Positions 9,506 through 26,664 of a DNA stretch of 64,000 nucleotides are shown here, in pieces (the first letter of the stretch is position 1; each line of letters starts with the position of its first letter). Location of the stretch: the NCBI GenBank assembly GCA_945881865.1, contig CAMCVK010000005.1, positions 1 through 64,000 of the forward strand. Direction: 5' to 3'. The position numbers and the translations under genes were made by a program. Source of the DNA: Fimbriimonas ginsengisoli Gsoil 348. Its GTDB lineage: Bacteria; Armatimonadota; Fimbriimonadia; Fimbriimonadales; Fimbriimonadaceae. The notes beneath the pieces were generated by a model, which did no database searches, had not been told where the DNA came from, and saw only the letters and a list, made by a program, of their open reading frames with translations.

Positions 9506-10381
9506 CTAGTCGGCCATTAAAGAAGCGCGGTCGCACACCTTGGCAGACTGCGTTGCGGTCCAGTCTCGAAACGCTTGAATGCCAAGCCCCCGGATCAGAA
9601 AAGACTCCGCCTGGATCACGTTGTACAGATCACACGCAAGAGACATCTCGTCCGCCATGCCCCAAAGGCGCCGCAACTCGTCGCCGTAAAACGACGCACC
9701 CTCGCCGACATCCAGGCGAGCCGTAACCTCGGCAAGGCTCAGCCAATAGAGCGGATCACCGAAGCAGAATTGGTCGAGATCGACGATTCCCTGGAAGACC
9801 CCATCAAGCACGATCACGTTCTTCACGGTCAAGTCATCGAGGAAGCAGACGGGGCGAACGGAGCCAAAGTAGGGCTTCAAGAGTGCGACGACCCGTCGAA
9901 CTTCTGCCGAACATTCCAACGATTCGCGCTCAATGACGCCGGTCCAACTTGGAAACGGGCCCGGTACGTTAAGAGGTGTCCAGCCAAAGCCAGACCCTTG
10001 CGGCAATTGGTTGACTTTCCTTTCGATCGCGACGACTTGCTCCGCGAGTTTGGTCATTTCGAGTCGTGACATGTCACCCAAAACGTAGCCAATATCCTTT
10101 CCGGGAATCTTCCGCAGGACGAGGTAACTGAACCCTTCGAGCGTTCCCTTTTTCAAGACCTGCGGGACGGCGATTCCGAGGCCGGATAGCACCTGAATGT
10201 GATGTTCGGTATGGTCAAACGCCCCTTTTGAGTCGTGAGTCTTGAAAATGAATTCTCCAGGCGGCGAACGCACCTCGAAAGTGATTCCGGCGTGACCATA
10301 GGGCTGGAAAATTACTTCGTCAATATCGCCCAGGAGAGCCGCGGCAAGACGGATCACCTCCTGTCTTCGCTGCTCGACCAC
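9506..10381 (-). CDS. APH-like phosphotransferase with a replaced catalytic-loop His
   Basis: 291 residues of the aminoglycoside phosphotransferase/choline kinase fold. The N-lobe has FEVRSPPGEFIFKTH (nucleotide-binding Lys) and the hinge FSYLVLRKIPGKDI. The catalytic loop reads CFLDDLTVKNVIV instead of the usual HGDxxxxN: Asp and Asn are kept but His is Leu. The metal-binding segment GIVDLDQFCFGDPLYWL is normal. The substrate could be an aminoglycoside-like compound or a small metabolite; resistance should not be assumed. Single gene. Confidence 0.75.
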   Translation of the reverse strand: MVEQRRQEVIRLAAALLGDIDEVIFQPYGHAGITFEVRSPPGEFIFKTHDSKGAFDHTEHHIQVLSGLGIAVPQVLKKGTLEGFSYLVLRKIPGKDIGYVLGDMSRLEMTKLAEQVVAIERKVNQLPQGSGFGWTPLNVPGPFPSWTGVIERESLECSAEVRRVVALLKPYFGSVRPVCFLDDLTVKNVIVLDGVFQGIVDLDQFCFGDPLYWLSLAEVTARLDVGEGASFYGDELRRLWGMADEMSLACDLYNVIQAESFLIRGLGIQAFRDWTATQSAKVCDRASLMAD

Positions 10382-10613: not shown

Positions 10614-11930
10614 TCAAAGTCCGTTGAGAGACTCGACTACGTTCAGGCGGCCGAAGCCGAGGCTCTGGTCCCAGAGCGGTGTGCTTCGGCCGAGCAGGCT
10701 TTGCAGGTCGCTATAGGTCGCGCTTGGTTTCGACAGCAGCATTTTCGAGGCAACGCCAGCGACTAGGGGGGCCGAGAACGAGGTTCCCCATCCGCCGGCC
10801 CAGCGGCCACCCGGGAACGGCAACATCAGGGCTTCACCAGGGGCGGCCACCAAGGTGAAGTCGGAGCCAGCGTTGCTAAACGCGCTACGGCGGGACAGTA
10901 GAGAAATTGATGCCACACCGGTTACTTTTGGCACCGCTGCCGGGTAACTCGGGAGGTTTATGAGGCCATCGTTCCCGGTGGACGCAACCAGGATCACACC
11001 TTGATCTGAAACTTCCTCGGCAGTTCGGGCGAGTTCTGGCGAAAAGGTGTAGGTGTTCAGGCTGAGGTTCACCACTTTGGCGCCCCGAATCTGGGCCGCA
11101 TGGATGCCGCGAATGACATCGAAAAGGCGGCCGGTTCCGTTTTGGTGAAACGCACGGATCGGAAGGATGCGAGCATTCGGAGCGACCAGCCGCACGGCAC
11201 CGGCAACCATCGTGCCATGTCCCAAACCGATGGGGATGCGGGCGTAGACGGGGTTGGCCGCCGATCCGACCGGCAGTAGTGGTGCCGTTCCGTTTGAAAG
11301 GTGGGTAATTTGCGTGCGCAATAGAGGTGTCGTGGTGGGGTTAATGAAAGCAAGCACGTCGGCGGGCAGTCCGGTTAACTCGCTCCCAGTTCCGCCTGGC
11401 GTAAGGTAGTCGATGCCCGTCAGCAGTCGCCCGGCAAAGAATGGGTGCGACCGGTCCACCCCGGTGTCGATGACGGCGACCGTTCCGCCGCCTAGGCCCT
11501 GCATGTTCCATGAGAGATTTGCACTCACAAAGCCAAGCGGCGCTTGAGTGATAGCGCCCTGGGGGGCGGTAACGCCAAAAAAGTTGATCGGCAAGTTGCG
11601 ACTGAACGCCGTTTGCAGATCGCTCATGGCAGAAGTCTGCCGAGTCCTAAGGGACAATATCGGCAATCGCAGCGTCTGATCGAGTTCGATGGAAACGTCG
11701 TCATCCGTATCGGAGGAGATGCGTTGCACCAAAATGTCCGGCCGCCGATTCTGCAAGTCAATCACGGCGTGAATCGGGCGTGTCGGAACGCTGGCTTGAA
11801 GCTGCAGTCCATAGCGGGCAAGAAACGTTGGCAGCGGCTCGCTCTCGGTGTATCTAAGGATATAACGCGGATTCGCCTCGGCGATTCCGACCAGCAACAC
11901 GCCCAAACAAAGGAAAGGAATTCGGTTCAT
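10614..11930 (-). CDS. Secreted subtilisin-like (S8) serine peptidase
   Basis: 438 residues with a signal peptide (FLCLGVLLVGIAEA). A propeptide-like region of about 120 residues is followed by the S8 catalytic domain: AVIDTGVD (Asp155), GHGTMVAG (His238), the oxyanion Asn in ASTGND (Asn320) and GTSFSAPLVAG (Ser384). All triad residues are present, so it should be active outside the cytoplasm. Its ATG overlaps the stop codon of the preceding gene (ATGA at 11927-11930), so it is the last gene of the operon starting with the ECF sigma factor at 15638. It is probably the effector or substrate-processing arm of that system. Confidence 0.92.
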   Translation of the reverse strand: MNRIPFLCLGVLLVGIAEANPRYILRYTESEPLPTFLARYGLQLQASVPTRPIHAVIDLQNRRPDILVQRISSDTDDDVSIELDQTLRLPILSLRTRQTSAMSDLQTAFSRNLPINFFGVTAPQGAITQAPLGFVSANLSWNMQGLGGGTVAVIDTGVDRSHPFFAGRLLTGIDYLTPGGTGSELTGLPADVLAFINPTTTPLLRTQITHLSNGTAPLLPVGSAANPVYARIPIGLGHGTMVAGAVRLVAPNARILPIRAFHQNGTGRLFDVIRGIHAAQIRGAKVVNLSLNTYTFSPELARTAEEVSDQGVILVASTGNDGLINLPSYPAAVPKVTGVASISLLSRRSAFSNAGSDFTLVAAPGEALMLPFPGGRWAGGWGTSFSAPLVAGVASKMLLSKPSATYSDLQSLLGRSTPLWDQSLGFGRLNVVESLNGL

Positions 11931-12454
11931 TGTAGGTTCACCTGGTAGATACCGCGCAAACCGGCGGCCTCAAAAGTCAATTGGGGTTCGTCGCGGGCGA
12001 TCTCTAACATGAATTCGCCGATTTCATCACAAAAAGCTTCCGAAGCACCTGCCTTTACCGAAATGCTTCCAGATGCCGGGCCGGTAAAGAGACCGACGAC
12101 AGAAAGCCGCGTGGTGTTCGGGATGGGCTCGAGGCGCAATTCCACCTCGGCGTCGTCGAACTCGAAGCGCAAGTCTCGGGCCGCCGAGCCGCCATGCCGA
12201 AACCCCGGCATACCTCCTTGGCCAGAAAAGACCAACCGACCGATCCAGCGTGGGTAGGTCGTAGGTAGCACGGGCAACAACGCTTTCGCGCGGTTTACGA
12301 AGAACTCCGGTGCGGGGTCTGCCGCGGCCGCCAGCACCTGGCGAAGGAGGAAAATTCGCTCGCTGGCCTCAGGGTCTTGCTCCACGGCGAGGCGGTCCTC
12401 GCCGGATGCAATCCCGCGCACGTAATCTGAAATCTGTCCCCAGGTAGCTTTCAT
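11927..12454 (-). CDS. Small beta-sandwich protein of the sigma/CHAT operon
   Basis: 175 residues from the ATG at 12454; the frame is open further upstream, but that part overlaps the CHAT gene. The N-terminal 50 residues are helical, with a repeated acidic pattern (IASGEDRLAVEQDPEASERI) like proteins that bind a sigma factor. Then come RLVFSGQGGMPGFRHGG, LRFEFDDAEVELRLEP, and a C-terminal beta domain of the carboxypeptidase-regulatory type. Similar proteins sit next to ECF sigma and CHAT genes in other phyla. Anti-sigma or sensor function is my inference. It starts 38 bp after the CHAT gene and overlaps the subtilase start by 4 bp. Confidence 0.7.
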   Translation of the reverse strand: MKATWGQISDYVRGIASGEDRLAVEQDPEASERIFLLRQVLAAAADPAPEFFVNRAKALLPVLPTTYPRWIGRLVFSGQGGMPGFRHGGSAARDLRFEFDDAEVELRLEPIPNTTRLSVVGLFTGPASGSISVKAGASEAFCDEIGEFMLEIARDEPQLTFEAAGLRGIYQVNLQ

Positions 12455-12492
12455 TATCGTTGATATCTTAAGGGCAGGAACCCAATCGGAGT

Positions 12493-15033
12493 CTAACCAG
12501 AATTTTCGGACGGAGCACTTTCCGGAGGAGCCCCAAACATAGCGAAGGCCGCCCAGTCGGCTGGGTGCGGGTGTCTTTGGGCGATATTGGCTGAAGCACT
12601 TTGATAAGCGAACATCAAGCCTTGATCGATTTTCGAGTAGAAGACGTCCATCCACTCCAGGGTGACAGCATCGGAAACTGCCCACAGGGAGGCGATCACG
12701 GTCTGAGAGCCCGCTCCAAGGAACGCTTCGATAAATCCTTCAGCGTCTCGAAGTTCACCGGGTACCGAGACTCCAGTCGAACAACCGCTCAGGACGGTGA
12801 GCTCGGCCGAGAGCCGTAACCGAACCACATCGAAGACGCTTAAGTCTCGGTCACCCAGCTTCATAGCGCTAAAAAGTGGTCGATCCTCTCGAACAATTCC
12901 ATGGGCCGCAATGTGCAGAACACGGGCGGCGGGGGCTGCCGCTTCAAACGCGGCTGGCCATGTTATTTGCACACCAAGGCGATCTGAAACCATGTGCACT
13001 TCTTTGTCGATGTGTGGAGCAAGGGCGTCGCCCACGCCCATCACGAGGGCTCCGGTGGCTAACGGTCGCCGTCTGCGCAGGGCCAGCCAGCTTGCCGCGC
13101 TGGGCGCATACAACACCTGCTGTCCCGGCACAAGAGCATGAAACGGAATAGCCGACAACGGATCATCCCTTGCAATGACGAGGTTGCCCGTGCCGCCCAA
13201 AACGGGAGCGAAACACCGCGCAACTTGGGAAAGAACCGCCCAAATTCGATCCGTTCCGCGCGTGCGATCTCGTGCCAGGTGGAAACGGAAGAACCTCGCC
13301 ATCCGCGCGAACTCCTCAACCTGTCCAAGGAGCACTTCTTGCACGTCGCTACCTCGAATGACGAAGGCGTAAAGGCACCCCTGATCCGAGAACAGCTCGA
13401 GGATTTGCGTTCCATCGGGCACGGGTCCAAGCTCGGTTGGGCTTGGAATGGAGCCGGTGGCCAGGCTTTGCGCCTCGTGAAGCGCGGTTGTCAAAGCCTC
13501 CTCCGATTCGCCAGAGTAGAGCCGACTTCTTAGCAGGCTCAAGTCGGATCCGAAGGGCAGCGATTCTGGCGAGAGTGCGATCTCGGAAAGGGTCTGGTTT
13601 TTGATTCGCGCCACCACTTCGTGCCTTTCCTTAGCATCCCCCAGGGCGCGGAAGCACTCACGCAGTATCTTGGTTTGCGCGACGGCGGCGGCCTGACGAA
13701 GTCGAGCACCGCCGATTCGGTCCCGGTGTGCGTCATATTCCGAAAGTGCCGTCCTGGCCCACGCGGCCGCCAGCTCCAGATCGCCCCGCTGGCGCGCCGA
13801 CTTCGCATTCAGGGTTGGCGTTGGGGCAAGCCGCGTGAAGAGAGCGGTCTCCCCTAAATCAAGTGCGAGATCGCCGAGTGCCTGGCGTATGGAAGGCAGT
13901 CGTTCGTCCGTTGGTCCCTGAGCTTCCGCCCTCAGCAGCTGCGTGAGGGCAGCTCTGGGGCGGTCCAAAGCCGTCCAGTATTCGGCATAGGCTTGGTGAA
14001 CCAGGGCGTGCCAGTTATGGTTTGGCACTTTACGGATGAGTCCTCTGGCCTCGTCTAGCGTCGCCTTCGCCTCGGCAGCGCGACCACTTCTCACCAGTGC
14101 CATGCCGGCGAGTAACCGTGCTTTGCCTTTTTCAAACCGGGTGTCGAGTTTGTCGAATATGTCAGCTGCCCGGTTGGCAGCCGCCAACGCGTCGGTCCAG
14201 AGGCCAGCATCCAGCATGAAGTCTGCCTGATCCAGGAAGGAGTGACCGATCTCGAATCCCAGTTCCTCTGGCAGCTCATGCCGCAATTGCCGGTAGGCAA
14301 CCAGGGCCTCCCGGAGAAAGCCTCTTCGTCCCAACAGATATGCCCGGTTAAGATCAATTTCAAGTACGAGCGAGCGGTCGCCGGCGTGTTCGAAGACGGC
14401 CCTTGCTTGACCATACATTGCTTCGGCTCGGTCCAGCGCAAGGAGTCCCATCAGGCAAACGCCGTAGTTACGCGCGACGATGGCAAGGTCCGCGATCGCT
14501 CCTGCTGCCGCAAGCACCGGCATGGCCGCTTCGTAATGCTCCTGCGCCTCGGCAAGGCGGTCGAGACGATAGTGCGCATTGGCCAAATTTGCCTGCACCC
14601 TTGCGGCACGAAACCCGTCTCCGATACTTTGAAAATGCGCGAGGGCCTCCCCGGCAACTTCAAAAGCACGGACGTAATTTCCCACGTACGATAGCGCCTG
14701 CAACATTGCGACGGCGGTAGCGGCCCGTTCGTCAGGATGCTCGGCGAAGGATCTTCGCGCCGCTTCGTAATGCGGAACGGCCCGCGCTGCCTTGCCGCGG
14801 AGTAGCTCCGAATGGCCCGACAATCGTGAGGCCAACCCCTCGCCCCGGACATCCTTGAGCTGGCGGGCAAGTTTCCCGGCCGCCGCGGCAAGCCGAGACG
14901 CGGCCATGACGTCGTGCCGAATGATCGCCATACCTTCTTGCACAAGCGCTTCCACCGTCTCCGGCTGGCGCAAAGCGGCGGGCGCGATCCGGGCACTGAC
15001 CATCGCCTTTTCCACATACTCCGGCAACGTCAC
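12493..15033 (-). CDS. TPR-CHAT protein (caspase-like protease with TPR array)
   Basis: 846 residues from the GTG at 15033, whose GTGA overlaps the TGA of the sigma factor gene; the longer open frame would overlap that gene by 160 bp. Residues about 30-480 are tandem tetratricopeptide helices (for example HYRLDRLAEAQEHYEAAMPV and FEKGKARLLAGMALVRSGRA). The C-terminal 300 residues are a CHAT peptidase domain with HIAAHG (His711) and LSGCSTGV (Cys751). CHAT proteins are clan CD cysteine peptidases, some triggered by signals read by their TPR region; here likely substrates are the neighbouring sigma factor, the beta-sandwich protein or other targets. No membrane segment. Confidence 0.92.
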   Translation of the reverse strand: MTLPEYVEKAMVSARIAPAALRQPETVEALVQEGMAIIRHDVMAASRLAAAAGKLARQLKDVRGEGLASRLSGHSELLRGKAARAVPHYEAARRSFAEHPDERAATAVAMLQALSYVGNYVRAFEVAGEALAHFQSIGDGFRAARVQANLANAHYRLDRLAEAQEHYEAAMPVLAAAGAIADLAIVARNYGVCLMGLLALDRAEAMYGQARAVFEHAGDRSLVLEIDLNRAYLLGRRGFLREALVAYRQLRHELPEELGFEIGHSFLDQADFMLDAGLWTDALAAANRAADIFDKLDTRFEKGKARLLAGMALVRSGRAAEAKATLDEARGLIRKVPNHNWHALVHQAYAEYWTALDRPRAALTQLLRAEAQGPTDERLPSIRQALGDLALDLGETALFTRLAPTPTLNAKSARQRGDLELAAAWARTALSEYDAHRDRIGGARLRQAAAVAQTKILRECFRALGDAKERHEVVARIKNQTLSEIALSPESLPFGSDLSLLRSRLYSGESEEALTTALHEAQSLATGSIPSPTELGPVPDGTQILELFSDQGCLYAFVIRGSDVQEVLLGQVEEFARMARFFRFHLARDRTRGTDRIWAVLSQVARCFAPVLGGTGNLVIARDDPLSAIPFHALVPGQQVLYAPSAASWLALRRRRPLATGALVMGVGDALAPHIDKEVHMVSDRLGVQITWPAAFEAAAPAARVLHIAAHGIVREDRPLFSAMKLGDRDLSVFDVVRLRLSAELTVLSGCSTGVSVPGELRDAEGFIEAFLGAGSQTVIASLWAVSDAVTLEWMDVFYSKIDQGLMFAYQSASANIAQRHPHPADWAAFAMFGAPPESAPSENSG

Positions 15034-15638
15034 GTCACGCCTCTGCTTCGCAAAATCCGCTCCAGATCGTCCAGACAGCGTTGGCGCGTCATGCTGATGG
15101 ATTGAATTTTGATTCCTAGCTGTTTGGCAACTTCGGCATATGGGGTTGGCGGGTCGGCGAAAAATAGCCGTTTCACAAGCTCCTGACACCGATCGGTTAG
15201 AGAATGGACCGCGTCCCTCACGGTCTGTCGCATTTCCATCTGCTCCAGGTCACCGGCCAGATCACCGTCGAATAGAAATGGTTCTACAATTTCTAAAGAC
15301 ATGGGAGCCTTCGCAGCGCCGTCCCGCAACTTAACGGCCTGCCGCAGCGTCGTTTGGCGGAGCCACGGTCGGAGGTGGTCCTCGGCCGCTAACTTCGGAA
15401 GTGCTTTAAAAAGTTCCACAAAAACGTACTGGAACCCATCGGGCTGGTCGGCCTCTGGCACGCGTGCAGATCGCAACAGCCCGTAGACGTAAGCCGAATA
15501 CCGATCGATGACGGCGGCCCATGCGGTCGGGTCACCCGCTTTTGCGCCTCGGATCAACGCCGCATCCGTAGCCTCTGGACTCTGCCTACGACGGTTCGCC
15601 ATCGCTTGAATCATACGCTGGTATGCGGAATTCGTCAC
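15030..15638 (-). CDS. ECF-type RNA polymerase sigma factor
   Basis: 202 residues. Region 2 spans GDPTAWAAVIDRYSAYVYGL to ALPKLAAEDHLRPWLRQ (about residues 35-105). Region 4 starts at LTDRCQELVKRLFF and contains the helix-turn-helix YAEVAKQLGIKIQSISMTRQ (about residues 165-185). No extra anti-sigma domain is fused. Alternative starts are Met9 and Met13. It opens the operon sigma, CHAT, beta-sandwich, subtilase, with translational coupling to the CHAT gene. Divergent from the secreted protein gene at 15719, so both promoters must lie in 15639-15718. Confidence 0.92.
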   Translation of the reverse strand: MTNSAYQRMIQAMANRRRQSPEATDAALIRGAKAGDPTAWAAVIDRYSAYVYGLLRSARVPEADQPDGFQYVFVELFKALPKLAAEDHLRPWLRQTTLRQAVKLRDGAAKAPMSLEIVEPFLFDGDLAGDLEQMEMRQTVRDAVHSLTDRCQELVKRLFFADPPTPYAEVAKQLGIKIQSISMTRQRCLDDLERILRSRGVT

Positions 15639-15718
15639 GTGCGAAAAATCATGTTAGCACCGCCGCTTTGGGCTTCCCTTGAGAAGAGTGGTCGGAAAAT
15701 CGGCCCAGAGCAACGAAC

Positions 15719-16633
15719 ATGAAGAACCTCCTCACCCTCGCCCTCTGCCTTTCGGCCGGCATCGCTGCCGCCAACAACGTGACCGCTGAAATCTCCAGCA
15801 ACGACCTTAACCTCCGGGGCGATGCCTTCGGAAACCAGATCCGAGTCGACCGAACCGCCATCGGCGTTCGGATCATCGGCTTGTCGGGAACCCTCGTCAA
15901 CGGCCTGCCCAGCGTTCAGTTCGCCGTTACCGGCCCGCTGGTGAATGTATCGGCAAACATGGATGCCGGTAACGACGCCGTGACGTTCCGGAATGTCGGG
16001 AACCTCGGCGATGTGATCATCGAAGCCGGTCAGGGCAACGATCGTCTCACGGTTCTCGGTTCCTCCTCGACGGCCAACTTCAACCTGAAGGGCGAAGAAG
16101 GCAACGACGCGATCACCGTGACCAGCTCTTTTGCTGCCGGTGACATGCTGTTGGACGGCGGCTCCGGGGCGAACACGCTTCGGGCGACATCCGCGACTGC
16201 CGGAAACAGCCTCAGCGCTTTTGGCGGAGAATTGGCAGACCGTTTTGAACTTGCAGGCCTGACGGTGGGCGGCAGCCTCGAAGTATTCGGGGATAAAGGG
16301 AATGATCTTGTGACGGTGTCGGGTGCCGTTGTGGGAGAAAATGCCCTGCTGAGCACGGACGAAGGCGTGGATCGGCTAACCCTGACGAGCATGGAAATCG
16401 GCAAGGACATGATCGTTGAAACCGGCGCCATGAACGACGTTGCAGCCCTGAGCCAGATCACCATCTTTGGAAGCATCGGCGTGAACCTGGATTCCGGCGA
16501 CGACACCTTCAGCGCGACCAACGTGGCCGCTCAGCAAGACGCGGTCGCCATCGGCGGCGCGGGTCGAGACCGCTTCACGAACTTCGGATTCTCGGGAATC
16601 ACGAAGCGAGAAGTTCTCGAATTCGAACTCTGA
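15719..16633 (+). CDS. Secreted repetitive beta-helix-like protein with GNDxx repeats
   Basis: 304 residues with a signal peptide (LLTLALCLSAGIAAA). The mature part consists of about nine imperfect units of 20-25 residues, each with a small-residue/Asp turn such as MDAGNDAVTF, AGQGNDRLTV, GEEGNDAITV, GDKGNDLVTV and LDSGDDTFSA. The turns resemble calcium-binding RTX nonapeptides (GGxGxDxxx) but are spaced like a single-stranded beta-helix. No catalytic residues. It starts 81 bp from the divergently transcribed sigma factor gene and could be a target of that sigma factor. Confidence 0.8.
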   Translation: MKNLLTLALCLSAGIAAANNVTAEISSNDLNLRGDAFGNQIRVDRTAIGVRIIGLSGTLVNGLPSVQFAVTGPLVNVSANMDAGNDAVTFRNVGNLGDVIIEAGQGNDRLTVLGSSSTANFNLKGEEGNDAITVTSSFAAGDMLLDGGSGANTLRATSATAGNSLSAFGGELADRFELAGLTVGGSLEVFGDKGNDLVTVSGAVVGENALLSTDEGVDRLTLTSMEIGKDMIVETGAMNDVAALSQITIFGSIGVNLDSGDDTFSATNVAAQQDAVAIGGAGRDRFTNFGFSGITKREVLEFEL

Positions 16634-16806: not shown

Positions 16807-17769
16807 ATGCGCACGATCCAACGATTTGACCAGGTGACTCCGGCATGGCTTTCTGGGGTGCTCGGCGAGGAAGTTGTGAGCGTCGAGTTGTCGACTTCCA
16901 CCAGCAATTGGGCGCAAAGTGCTTCCATCACGGCCCGAATGGCGGGCGGCCAAAGTCGAAAGTTATGGATAAAGCTGTGCATGGGCAGCACATTTGGCAG
17001 TTCGGAAGTTGACTACTATTTGCGAGATTACATTGATCTCCCGAACGCTCCCCTGGTCGCCTGCCACGACGCCTGCTATGAACCAGGGATTGGCTACCAC
17101 GTGTTACTCGATGACCTATCCGACGATTTTCAGGATCGGAAAACAGCGCCCCCAACGTTAGAACATGGCCTTGCCCTAGCCGAGGCAATTGCGCGGATGG
17201 GCGCTCACCTCTGGGAGAGCGGCACGCCGCCAACGTCATCCCAATGGGACGCCTACTTCGAACACATTTGCGCCGGCATTGAGCCAATTGAACTGGAAAC
17301 CGGGCTGTCTTTTCGCGCAAACTTCGATTCCCACGAGGCCCGCCTCCGCGAACGATGGAGCAATCCAACGGGATTGACGCTGCTCCACGGCGATATCAAC
17401 CCGACCAACGTGCTGGCACCCAAGGGAGCCGAATCACCGGTCTACATCCTGGATCGGCAACCGTTTGATTGGACGATCACGTACGGGCTAGCCGTCTTTG
17501 ACCTTGCGTATTCGATTGTTCCCTGGTGGCCCCATGAATTCCGAGGGAGTCATCAAAAGGTCATATTAAGGCAATGGTTTGACATTCTTGGTCAGCCGGG
17601 ATACACCTGGGAGCAGGCGCAGGCGGACTGGGACCTATCGGTGGAACACTGCCTTCACATCCCAATCGAGTGGTGTCGTGACTCGGAAGATCTTGAGAGG
17701 ATGCGTGGCCTTTGGGAATGGCAACTCGAAAACATAAAGGGTCAAGCCGTCCGCAGCGGACGACAATGA
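16807..17769 (+). CDS. APH/ecdysteroid-kinase-like phosphotransferase
   Basis: 320 residues with a complete kinase core: LLHGDINPTNVL (catalytic HGDxxPxN, about residues 197-208) and YILDRQPFDWT (metal-binding Asp). The N-lobe has the LWIKLCMG Lys and the hinge GYHVLLDDLS. This spacing is like bacterial ecdysteroid-kinase-like or DUF1679 proteins rather than classic aminoglycoside kinases. The substrate is unknown. It follows a strong terminator and is probably transcribed alone. Confidence 0.85.
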   Translation: MRTIQRFDQVTPAWLSGVLGEEVVSVELSTSTSNWAQSASITARMAGGQSRKLWIKLCMGSTFGSSEVDYYLRDYIDLPNAPLVACHDACYEPGIGYHVLLDDLSDDFQDRKTAPPTLEHGLALAEAIARMGAHLWESGTPPTSSQWDAYFEHICAGIEPIELETGLSFRANFDSHEARLRERWSNPTGLTLLHGDINPTNVLAPKGAESPVYILDRQPFDWTITYGLAVFDLAYSIVPWWPHEFRGSHQKVILRQWFDILGQPGYTWEQAQADWDLSVEHCLHIPIEWCRDSEDLERMRGLWEWQLENIKGQAVRSGRQ

Positions 17770-24360: not shown

Positions 24361-26664
24361 TCAATCCGATGGATTCGTCAACCTAATGTACTCTCTTTCA
24401 AGGTCTTCCGGATTCCCGAAAGTCTCAACTCGGTAACTGCCGATGGAACCATCTCCCTTTCGAAATGTTAATTTTGTTGCCGACAAAACATAACCCGATG
24501 GGAACCAGGGTTCAAATCCATCCTCCCAGTAGGCTCCGGTGAAGTTGGCGCGGGTTAGGTCCGTCCCGTCGAAATTTGCACTGGTCAGGTTGGCACCAGT
24601 AAGAGTGGCATTGTACAGCACTGCACCGTCGAGGTTTGCACGGGTCAGGTTTGCCCCAGTGATGGTGGCACGAGCCAGACTTGCCCCAGTGAGCGTGGCC
24701 TCGGACAGGTCGGCCCCGGTGAGGGTGGCATCCCGCAGGATTGCCCTGGTTAGGTTGGCACGGCTCAGGTTGGCCGCTGAGAGGGTCGCACGTTCCATCT
24801 TTGTTCCGAAGAGGGCGGCACTCGACAAGTTTGTCCCGGTGAGGGTTGCACGGGACAGGTTTGCTCCCGCAAGAGAGGCTTCCAGTAAGTTCGCGCTACT
24901 TAGGGTGGCACCCGACAGGTCTACTCCGCTGAGGGTTGCACGGTACAGGTTTGCCCCGGTTAAATCGGCCCGAGACAGGTTTGCCCCGGCGAAGAACGAA
25001 CCGCTCATCTGGGCGAACGTCAACGTCGGTCCTCGCCTCGCCAAATCGTCCCACCATGCGCTGCCGCGCAAATCTGCGCCGGTGAAATTGGCCCCCGTCA
25101 GATCCGCCCCCCGGAAGTCACTGTTGACGAGGAACCCGTACGAAGCGTCGAGGAATCGTAGGTTATGCTGGCGCTTCATATCTCCCACGCGTGCGAACGA
25201 AATGCGAGGAACCAGTCGGGCCTTATTTTCCCCGTCGGCCCTAAGCTCCTGAACAAGACCCGTTATCCTCTTGGAATAGGAATTCCGGGCCCGGGTTAGG
25301 AGGGCTGCCATTTCTTTTGGCGTTGGTTCGAAGTTTGGGGTTTTGGGTTCAACCCAATCTTTTGTGAACCGTGTTTGGTCTTCGCGGATGCTGCCAAAAG
25401 CGCTGATCGGTTGCCACCGTAGGACGGCCGTCGCCCATCGGTTCGATTCAAACTGCCGCCGCAACTTCGCCTGCGCGTCAAGAGCCGCTTTTTCTTGTGC
25501 TTCCAAAGCGTCAAGCCGCCCTGGTTCATCTTTCAGCAAATCCTTAGCGCGATTCAGTCGCTCCGAAAATCGCTTATCCCAAGAGTCTGAATTGGCCGTT
25601 GCGTAAATGCCCAAGTCCTGGAGCATTCGCTCCTGCTCGCCGATCGCATCCAGAGGAACCCCGAGCTCAACGGCTCGGTTCACCTGGAACGGCAGAATTC
25701 CACCAACGGCCGTCAACACCAACGCCAATGGAGTAACAATCACCGATATCCATTTCCGATCTGCTCTGCCGGCCAGCATCGTCCGGCGGTGGGTCCAACA
25801 CGCGCCGAGAGCAGCAACCGCGGACGCGGCAACGAAGCCGGCGGCCGCATTGCTGAGGTTCACATCGTGCTTGGGGAGCACGCGAAGCCAAACCGTGACA
25901 ACCGTTACCGGTACGAAGAGGTACGCGACGAGCGAATAGAACACGACCTGCGGGCGAAACTGATTCTTCAGCCGTGGGAAGGCGAAGACGACGAGGTCGT
26001 TAAGAAGCCATGGGTACGTTTTTTGCTCGACCGGGACCCCGTCGGGAAAGACGGCGGGCAGGGTCGCCATCATTGACCAAAGACGTCCAAGGTGCAGGTG
26101 CACCGAAACGTAGAGGGCAAGGAGGACAACAGGGGCGATGGTGAAAAACGTTGACGTGCCGACGGCGACGTTGAGGATCGGGAGCTGGGCGGTGCCGGTG
26201 TTAGAGAGGAGCTGCATGTCGCCGGTACTGACGACCGTGATGAGGACGAAGACGCAGGCTAGCATGCTCGTTAGGAATATGGCCCCCGCGTTCTTTGAGG
26301 CTTCGCGGACGTTTTCGAGTTGGGGAAAATTATTAACTCCGTCGGGCAACTTGCACCGGGTCAGGTCCGCGCCCAAGAGTTGCTCGGGAATGAGGCCAGT
26401 AACGGTCTCCAAGTTTGCTTCAGTCAAATCGGCGTCGCGGAATTTGGTGTCGGTGACATCGGAACCGGTGAAGTCGACGCCTTTCAGGTTCGCGTCCGAA
26501 AAGTCAGCATTGCGGAGGTCTAGACGGCGGAGGCTCCCGGAAACCGTTGCGTTTGTGAAGTCTGCCCACTCGCCGTTCGCTTGCGCAGCTTTCAGCTCCG
26601 TCATGACCTCGTATCTCGTGAACGAACGAGGTTGAGGCTTTGGTTTCTTGCTTCGTTGAATCAT
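24361..26664 (-). CDS. Pentapeptide-repeat membrane protein
   Basis: 767 residues. A first set of pentapeptide repeats (A(D/N)LXX; LRNADFSDANLKGVDFTGSD) covers about residues 45-110. The middle (about 130-330) has five or six hydrophobic helices, then a soluble helical part. The C-terminal block from about residue 500 to 720 is a long right-handed quadrilateral beta-helix of some 35 pentapeptides (ANLSRADLTGANLYRATLSG and so on). Pentapeptide helices bind proteins or mimic DNA; with a membrane core the role could be sensing or scaffold. The regular repeats create long antisense open frames, which are not genes. Confidence 0.85.
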   Translation of the reverse strand: MIQRSKKPKPQPRSFTRYEVMTELKAAQANGEWADFTNATVSGSLRRLDLRNADFSDANLKGVDFTGSDVTDTKFRDADLTEANLETVTGLIPEQLLGADLTRCKLPDGVNNFPQLENVREASKNAGAIFLTSMLACVFVLITVVSTGDMQLLSNTGTAQLPILNVAVGTSTFFTIAPVVLLALYVSVHLHLGRLWSMMATLPAVFPDGVPVEQKTYPWLLNDLVVFAFPRLKNQFRPQVVFYSLVAYLFVPVTVVTVWLRVLPKHDVNLSNAAAGFVAASAVAALGACWTHRRTMLAGRADRKWISVIVTPLALVLTAVGGILPFQVNRAVELGVPLDAIGEQERMLQDLGIYATANSDSWDKRFSERLNRAKDLLKDEPGRLDALEAQEKAALDAQAKLRRQFESNRWATAVLRWQPISAFGSIREDQTRFTKDWVEPKTPNFEPTPKEMAALLTRARNSYSKRITGLVQELRADGENKARLVPRISFARVGDMKRQHNLRFLDASYGFLVNSDFRGADLTGANFTGADLRGSAWWDDLARRGPTLTFAQMSGSFFAGANLSRADLTGANLYRATLSGVDLSGATLSSANLLEASLAGANLSRATLTGTNLSSAALFGTKMERATLSAANLSRANLTRAILRDATLTGADLSEATLTGASLARATITGANLTRANLDGAVLYNATLTGANLTSANFDGTDLTRANFTGAYWEDGFEPWFPSGYVLSATKLTFRKGDGSIGSYRVETFGNPEDLEREYIRLTNPSD

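Follow-up and report, generated by a model that had tools for sequence, protein, structure and literature searches.

A conserved operon of ECF sigma factor, TPR-CHAT protease, putative anti-sigma factor and secreted subtilase in Fimbriimonas ginsengisoli: a candidate protease-switched sigma circuit

Introduction

Bacterial CHAT proteases have mostly been seen as immune or death effectors, and the best-known case in which such a protease is tied to a sigma inhibitor lies inside a CRISPR system. What such a protease acts on outside this setting is the question raised by an operon in a stretch of 64,000 nucleotides from Fimbriimonas ginsengisoli Gsoil 348 (GenBank assembly GCA_945881865.1, contig CAMCVK010000005.1, positions 1 to 64,000; in the following called the window). 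Here, genes for an extracytoplasmic function (ECF) sigma factor, a TPR-CHAT cysteine protease of the caspase/separase-like type, a small protein of 175 amino acids (aa) and a secreted subtilisin-like serine protease of family S8 follow each other closely. A first-pass annotation made from the letters of the window had read the four genes as suggesting one complete cascade, in which the CHAT protease could free or destroy the sigma factor and the secreted protease is the output. The reading we favor, with a probability of about 0.6, is a cytoplasmic protease-switched sigma circuit, in which the CHAT protease would cut the small protein as an anti-sigma factor, thereby freeing the sigma factor and switching on a secreted regulon.

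Organization and conservation of the operon

All four genes lie on the minus strand between positions 10614 and 15638, joined as the first-pass annotation had described. The stop of the sigma gene (15030..15638) overlaps the start of the TPR-CHAT gene (12493..15033, 846 aa) in a GTGA, a gap of 38 nt (12455-12492) separates the latter from the gene for the small protein (11927..12454), and an ATGA overlap leads on to the S8 gene (10614..11930). The first gene product is a sigma70-ECF protein by NCBIfam model TIGR02937 (E 3.7e-17, above cut-off), with sigma2 and sigma4 Pfam matches under their cut-offs. Its open reading frame (ORF), which opens at GTG 15638, stands as annotated, but the start probably does not: since the relatives in genomes G013, G014 and G006 align from there, the internal ATG 15602 (or 15614) is the likely true start, and about 116 bp therefore separate sigma from the divergent secreted gene.

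As a single query the small protein found relatives in 5 of 61 genomes, its own among them, and the same genes were present in the flanks of the other four; a scan of genome contigs with it yielded 82 pattern matches with no relative among them. At E 1e-3, a profile of its family (A1, 17 rows) matched in 62 of the 113 genomes that represent the class. Of these matches, 39, from 36 genomes, extend beyond the N-terminal head into the beta-sandwich that follows (E 3.4e-8 or better); most of the others cover the head only. Searching the flanks of these 39 relatives with hmmsearch revealed an ECF sigma gene in 39/39, a TPR-CHAT gene in 37/39 and an S8 gene in 36/39. The three incomplete loci (L080, L090, L092) are contig ends, the CHAT gene of L092 and the S8 gene of L086 are themselves truncated, and S8 is encoded in every uncut operon. 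Gene order is mostly sigma/anti-sigma/CHAT/S8; nine loci, the group of the window, have sigma/CHAT/anti-sigma/S8. Left out of the 39 were TPR-CHAT or TPR matches judged not to be this operon (L041-L044, L047-L050, L053 and others) as well as L046, a CHAT-S8 pair at a contig start in genome G048, whose locus L080, at the end of a contig, holds sigma and anti-sigma. Because the four genes recur around 39 relatives in 36 genomes, contig ends apart, their linkage is real, conserved and far beyond chance. The single-system view of the first-pass annotation is thus borne out; the rare co-occurrence that it had named as refuting was not seen.

Some loci in and around this set are noted for their own sake. 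In L077 (3500-5446) the CHAT gene is split into two ORFs beside a short sigma gene, by decay or an assembly frameshift. L118 comes from a record titled Methanoregulaceae archaeon; it has the operon, its genome groups with the family of the window, and it is probably mislabelled or mis-binned. L051, L055 and L069 are related-looking loci (TPR-CHAT, with sigma- and anti-sigma-like genes assigned partly by eye), in which the gene after CHAT encodes a secreted-looking protein of about 260-270 aa other than S8. The proteins of about 870 aa at L041-L044 and L070 have adenylate/guanylate cyclase-like N-termini by eye, give weak CHAT-profile matches and lie in similar settings.

The module recurs in other families of the Armatimonadota and, in part, in Actinobacteriota. 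Across the former phylum, profile A2 (38 members) gave matches at 1e-5 in 76 of 291 genomes, in many of them with nothing but the head. Among 16 further loci of the phylum, six carry all four genes (L101, L103, L104, L105, L108, L109) and L107 does so with sigma on the other strand; no sigma gene was detected in L110, and L102 and L106 are truncated. Five of the remaining six resemble ordinary anti-sigma heads (sigma adjoining in three), the sixth, L113, having sigma and anti-sigma together with a CHAT-like ORF of reduced length. L113 thereby joins L051 and L069 as a related arrangement without S8. A scan with profile A4 returned 11 loci. In the order of a genome titled Acidimicrobiales, a CHAT match at 1e-40 was found in 6 of 298 genomes, with three candidates scored per genome; newly analyzed flanks from five of these showed an anti-sigma-like protein near CHAT in 5/5, sigma in 4/5 and S8 in 3/5. 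The starting genome itself has sigma, anti-sigma and CHAT at L142, CHAT and S8 at L140 (cut upstream), and CHAT and S8 with no anti-sigma detected at L141. In Nonomuraea gerenzanensis, sigma, CHAT and S8 genes surround a tblastn match (E 3e-16) of the actinobacterial anti-sigma-like protein, a match that profile A2 does not detect. The S8 gene of the actinobacterial loci L144, L145 and L146 is opposite in strand to CHAT, and the S8 starts of L144 and L146 show no obvious export signal. Among plasmid CHAT matches, none of the four neighborhoods examined (from 107 records) had a sigma, anti-sigma or S8 profile match.

The small protein and class I anti-sigma factors

Judged by sequence, the small protein belongs to the class I anti-sigma factors and is soluble; homology to anti-sigma domains of the zf-HC2/RsiW type is seen in its head. 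Its AlphaFold (AF2) model, with a mean predicted local distance difference test (pLDDT) of 85.4 and a predicted template modeling score (pTM) of 0.55, shows helices at residues 5-13, 18-26, 28-44 and 50-59, forming a four-helix head (residues 1-60), and a beta-sandwich at residues 69-173. Class I anti-sigma domains consist of four helices, and their zinc-less members are common, some of them working without zinc, as stated in the part of PMC7406223 cited here. Of the shorter ORFs matched by the head alone, eight were fetched; all eight lie directly behind an ECF sigma gene and all eight match zf-HC2, seven of them above the Pfam cut-off. In the SigW/RsiW structure, the A2 profile matches RsiW (E 0.0017), the aligned part covering the HxxxCxxC motif and, in helix 4, the AP...LP stretch; 3 of 17 members scanned singly match zf-HC2 (best E 0.044).

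HxxxCxxC is kept in 16 of the 39 relatives, and many have C...HxxxCxxC in the head. The zinc ligands are lost in the other 23, which include all nine members of the gene-order group of the window; the window protein itself has no HxxxCxxC, while retaining the helix-4 stretch and Arg86. No transmembrane segment was seen by eye. Sigma is encoded together with the small protein in 39/39 loci, with CHAT lying between the two in the window. The first-pass annotation had asked whether the small protein with its helical head binds sigma, and on homology the head should do so; the protein would then be no accessory but the anti-sigma factor of the operon. A structure search with the whole model returned common beta-sandwiches (best Z 7.8), and no anti-sigma or Csx30 chain stood among the matches listed, a result that excludes neither.

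The two proteases

The TPR-CHAT protein matches PF12770 (E 8.2e-32) and TPR_12 (E 1.8e-10). Its catalytic residues His711 and Cys751 are kept in all 37 alignment rows reaching the site, among them L046 from outside the 39, and Asp788, a candidate for the S1 acid, is invariant. In Foldseek, the AF2 model (pLDDT 89.4, pTM 0.87) was most similar to Csx29 (chain 8eey_B, E 5.9e-15), followed by separase (E 1.2e-14). VIA-align ranked APPBP2 (Z 29.6), Rap (28.8) and Csx29 (28.7, at 11 A root-mean-square deviation). By sequence, Csx29 was the single match of the window protein in the PDB (E 0.0089), and a profile of the CHAT domain found Csx29-type chains (E 2e-8), DdvA (E 7.9e-8) and separase. The match to BovA in PADLOC was weak (E 0.0012).

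The S8 protein matches PF00082 (E 7.1e-29) and the PADLOC subtilase model (E 3.2e-19) and begins with a signal-like segment as judged by eye. Its catalytic D, H and S and the N are conserved in all 36 rows reaching the sites, L046 again included. As the output of the cascade, the part given to it by the first-pass annotation, S8 is no more than a candidate: all uncut operons encode it, but L051, L069 and L113 are related arrangements that lack it.

Arg86 and a candidate cleavage site

The anti-sigma family is diverse, with a mean identity of 22% in the 34 complete operons, and its alignment has a single invariant column, Arg86 (39/39; codon at 12197..12199, minus strand). In a cross-phylum alignment of 19 proteins, five of them actinobacterial, the residue is present in 19/19. 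It is preceded by Ala (P2) in 23/39 and followed by Ser, Gly or Ala (P1') in 30/39, and lies within the least certain block of the model (residues 81-90, mean pLDDT 50). Separases, which belong to clan CD, cut after Arg, according to the cited part of PMC4357240. Arg86 is thus a putative P1 residue of CHAT cleavage.

According to the sections of PMC10028731 used here, Csx30 in its uncut form keeps CASP-sigma blocked, and Csx29 cleaves this sigma inhibitor within a loop that is small and flexible. Since Csx29 acts in this way, we infer that the CHAT protease of the window may cut its anti-sigma factor at Arg86. With the small protein read as the anti-sigma factor, it and not sigma, as the first-pass annotation had it, becomes the most likely substrate. 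Distance matrices of the 34 complete operons, with no correction for phylogeny, show the anti-sigma protein correlating at 0.86 with CHAT, 0.79 with S8 and 0.73 with sigma, and when the group of the window is removed the values are 0.84, 0.71 and 0.67.

A promoter-like element and secreted neighbors

Three families that look secreted are found divergent beside sigma: a GND-repeat family in seven operons including the window, a family of about 125 aa in 14 and DUF4382 in two. In addition, a DUF4382-type lipoprotein gene separates sigma from anti-sigma, all three pointing the same way, in L103 (5853-7319) and L105 (3447-4991). Among the regions upstream of 46 sigma genes, spaced pairs of 5-mers were present in up to seven (AAGAG..ATACA) and in six (AAGAG..TGATA), whereas ten shuffles reached 3-4. 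With the resulting motif profile, 14 of the 46 regions scored higher than any of 460 shuffled ones (maximum 16.9). The exact string AAGAG-N17-TGATACA matched ten times in 18 genomes chosen for having the operon, against two matches of the reversed control; six lie beside sigma, one inside the operon of G063, two upstream of DUF4382-type lipoproteins and one elsewhere. In 20 genomes with no A2 match, string and control matched once each. The site in G063 (L155, 1501-1529) is located between sigma and anti-sigma and points to the anti-sigma gene, as a possible internal operon promoter.

Read in the opposite sense, the element is TGTATCA-N17-CTCTT. We scored 30 regions upstream of DUF4382-type matches, some of which are fragments of one gene. 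In the sense of the lipoprotein gene 11/30 exceeded 12.6, the maximum of the forward control, which itself gave 0. Two of the 11 lie beside sigma and two had led to the family; with these set aside, 7 of the 26 regions not used as seeds remain above the forward-strand control, four of them also outscoring all of 150 shuffled regions (highest score 14.8). AAGAG-N17-TGATACA as the promoter of sigma itself was rejected; above control level the DUF4382 genes carry the element in the opposite sense only. For the family of about 125 aa, TGTAT(C/T)..C(T/C)C(T/C), a pattern written after inspection, stands upstream of 11/14 genes at a background of 0.007 per 150 nt.

In the window, the element TGTTAGC-N17-CCCTTG (15652..15681, plus strand) points to the divergent gene of a secreted GND-repeat protein (15719..16633, plus strand). 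It resembles TGTATCA-N17-CTCTTG, which stands in front of other secreted neighbors and of some DUF4382 lipoprotein genes not linked to the operon. In an alignment of the seven orthologues of this gene, all have TGT(T/C)..CCCT, at -67 to -78 relative to the start, a pattern derived from that alignment. The gene, which the first-pass annotation had already proposed as a target, is therefore retained as a candidate regulon member. Since element and sigma co-occur, this sigma putatively reads it. A promoter-like motif of the kind that the first-pass annotation had proposed to look for in 15639-15718 is present, with similar ones in other genomes, but it leads to no further target in the genome of the window: one of two genome-wide matches is the element itself, the other lies inside a coding ORF, and the reversed control gave three.

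Two genes similar to APH-type phosphotransferases flank the operon and the GND gene (9506-10381 and 16807-17769, the second below the Pfam cut-off). Farther away, at 24361-26664, an ORF of 767 aa with 13 copies of a 30-nt direct repeat encodes a pentapeptide-repeat protein by eye.

Discussion

In the circuit that we favor, the degenerate zf-HC2/RsiW-type head of the anti-sigma factor would hold the ECF sigma factor until the TPR array of the CHAT protease senses a signal. CHAT would then cut the anti-sigma factor once, after Arg86, in the loop ahead of the main strands of the beta-sandwich, and the cut would disable the inhibitor and release sigma. RNA polymerase with this sigma factor would read TGT(A/T)..-N17-C(T/C)CTTG promoters of secreted proteins, the targets being the divergent GND-repeat gene in the window and, elsewhere, the other secreted neighbors and DUF4382 lipoproteins. 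S8, encoded last in the operon, would act outside the cell, perhaps by maturing products of the regulon.

Several results weigh against this circuit. Alone, the small protein of the window gave no significant match in Pfam, NCBIfam or PADLOC, so that no anti-sigma model recognized it, and Foldseek with its whole model found nothing below 0.001. The A2 match to RsiW is weak, and a dodecin chain, presumably by chance, scored better (E 5.2e-4). Part of the structural resemblance found for the CHAT protein comes from its TPR array, TPR-only chains ranking as high as Csx29 in VIA-align. Arg86 could be a structural or docking residue, low pLDDT being no proof of flexibility, and in the Csx30 experiments cited from PMC10028731 no single residue was essential. 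The full-set correlations of the anti-sigma protein (0.73-0.86) are lower than the values that link sigma, CHAT and S8 to each other (0.89-0.94), all of them uncorrected for phylogeny. As to the element, the regions that score best with the motif profile are the ones used to train it, and 32/46 stay at or below the shuffled maximum; six of the ten exact matches are training sites, leaving four new ones against two in the reversed control. The element of the window clade is a relaxed relative, and the regulon search in the genome of the window (G000) found nothing beyond the GND gene.

Other explanations share much of this evidence. TPR-CHAT might, on a signal, pull the anti-sigma factor off sigma with no proteolysis involved, its catalysis serving elsewhere. 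TPR arrays are binding modules, and the TPR half of the model is similar to the peptide receptors Rap/NprR (Z about 28), although superhelices of this kind match many proteins; the invariance of CHAT His and Cys, together with that of an Arg followed mostly by small residues at P1', as suits a cut site, speaks for cleavage and makes such a binding switch unlikely in our view. Slightly less probable still is a different substrate, either sigma or host proteins attacked by a conflict or cell-death effector, the sigma pair then controlling only expression of the protease genes. Bacterial conflict systems do use CHAT domains as effectors, as the cited part of PMC10907252 describes, and the matches to PADLOC subtilase and BovA fit this role. 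On the other side, none of nine scanned neighbors in the window belongs to a PADLOC family at 1e-3, the element points to secreted proteins, and the anti-sigma protein covaries most with CHAT among its partners. The first-pass annotation had regarded CHAT-sigma pairs as known from studies of conflict systems; the cited part of PMC8195603 places ECF sigma factors next to caspase/EACC2 systems, in an arrangement unlike this one.

The loss of zinc ligands throughout the group of the window, in which the small gene lies behind CHAT, would also suit a protein that is no longer an inhibitor in this lineage, acting instead as an adaptor presenting sigma or cargo to CHAT. We regard this as improbable, given that zinc-less class I domains are common and in part functional (PMC7406223, as cited above) and that the window protein keeps the helix-4 stretch and Arg86. 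It is very doubtful that S8 acts upstream, maturing a secreted signal whose product re-enters the cell and activates TPR-CHAT. The presence of S8 in all uncut operons and the peptide receptor-like TPR fold are compatible with this order of events; S8 works outside while the anti-sigma factor is cytosolic, similarity of TPR arrays is unspecific, and no candidate gene for a signal peptide was seen, though none was searched for.

The protease-switched circuit has its closest counterpart in CASP/Craspase of type III-E CRISPR, which likewise encodes a TPR-CHAT protease, a sigma inhibitor and an ECF sigma factor together, and whose Csx29 headed the Foldseek matches of the window protein. As far as the cited sections of PMC10028731 describe it, the N-terminal domain of Csx30 binds sigma and one cut falls in a flexible loop of the C-terminal part; by analogy, the same is predicted here. 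The window differs in having as inhibitor a 175-aa class I anti-sigma factor with a beta-sandwich, in adding a secreted S8 protease and secreted neighbors, and in keeping one Arg constant where the cut is presumed to fall, no essential residue being reported for Csx30. Although it would work in a similar way, the module is not a member of CASP/Craspase, because the window protein scores 20.7 bits with the NCBIfam Csx29 model NF041237 (cut-off 300), the 64-kb window contains no CRISPR-like array, and its scanned neighbors lack PADLOC families. Csx30 is absent among the A2 profile matches listed (E up to 10). In a search confined to the window, as opposed to the whole genome, no Cas7-11 was found either, the sole ORF of more than 900 aa being a repair helicase by eye.

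Class I anti-sigma factors of the RsiW, RsrA, ChrR and RseA type share the N-terminal four-helix domain, the partial HxxxCxxC and an adjoining or nearby ECF sigma gene. In contrast to them, the window protein has a beta-sandwich as C-terminal half and no transmembrane segment by eye, and it would be triggered by a caspase-like protease in the cytosol in place of redox or membrane proteolysis. DdvA (PDB 8rot), a transmembrane anti-sigma factor with a CHAT domain, also ties CHAT to control of an ECF sigma factor (DdvS; PMC4374960, in the part cited); there, both functions reside in one membrane protein, whereas the window encodes anti-sigma and CHAT separately. Separase of clan CD combines a helical-repeat array with a caspase-like domain and cuts after Arg, but is eukaryotic and has cohesin as its substrate. 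The four-gene module is not described in the literature listed by our search, and it may figure in the ECF classification as an unstudied context. Its parts (ECF sigma, anti-sigma, CHAT, S8) are ordinary, while their combination is conserved and, as far as searched, apparently undescribed.

We tentatively propose, at somewhat less than even odds, a widespread CRISPR-free signaling class in Armatimonadota and Actinobacteriota, in which an Arg-specific, separase-like TPR-CHAT protease of the cytosol turns on a secreted regulon by one cut behind the invariant Arg of a soluble anti-sigma factor and of which the sigma arm of Craspase is a CRISPR-captured relative. With only one predicted Arg, four genes and one predicted promoter involved, the question of the substrate is directly testable. 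If true, the circuit would also offer synthetic biology a compact protease switch that is gated by Arg. The same three roles in two phyla, with no CRISPR genes adjoining, would give the sigma arm of Craspase a plausible source.

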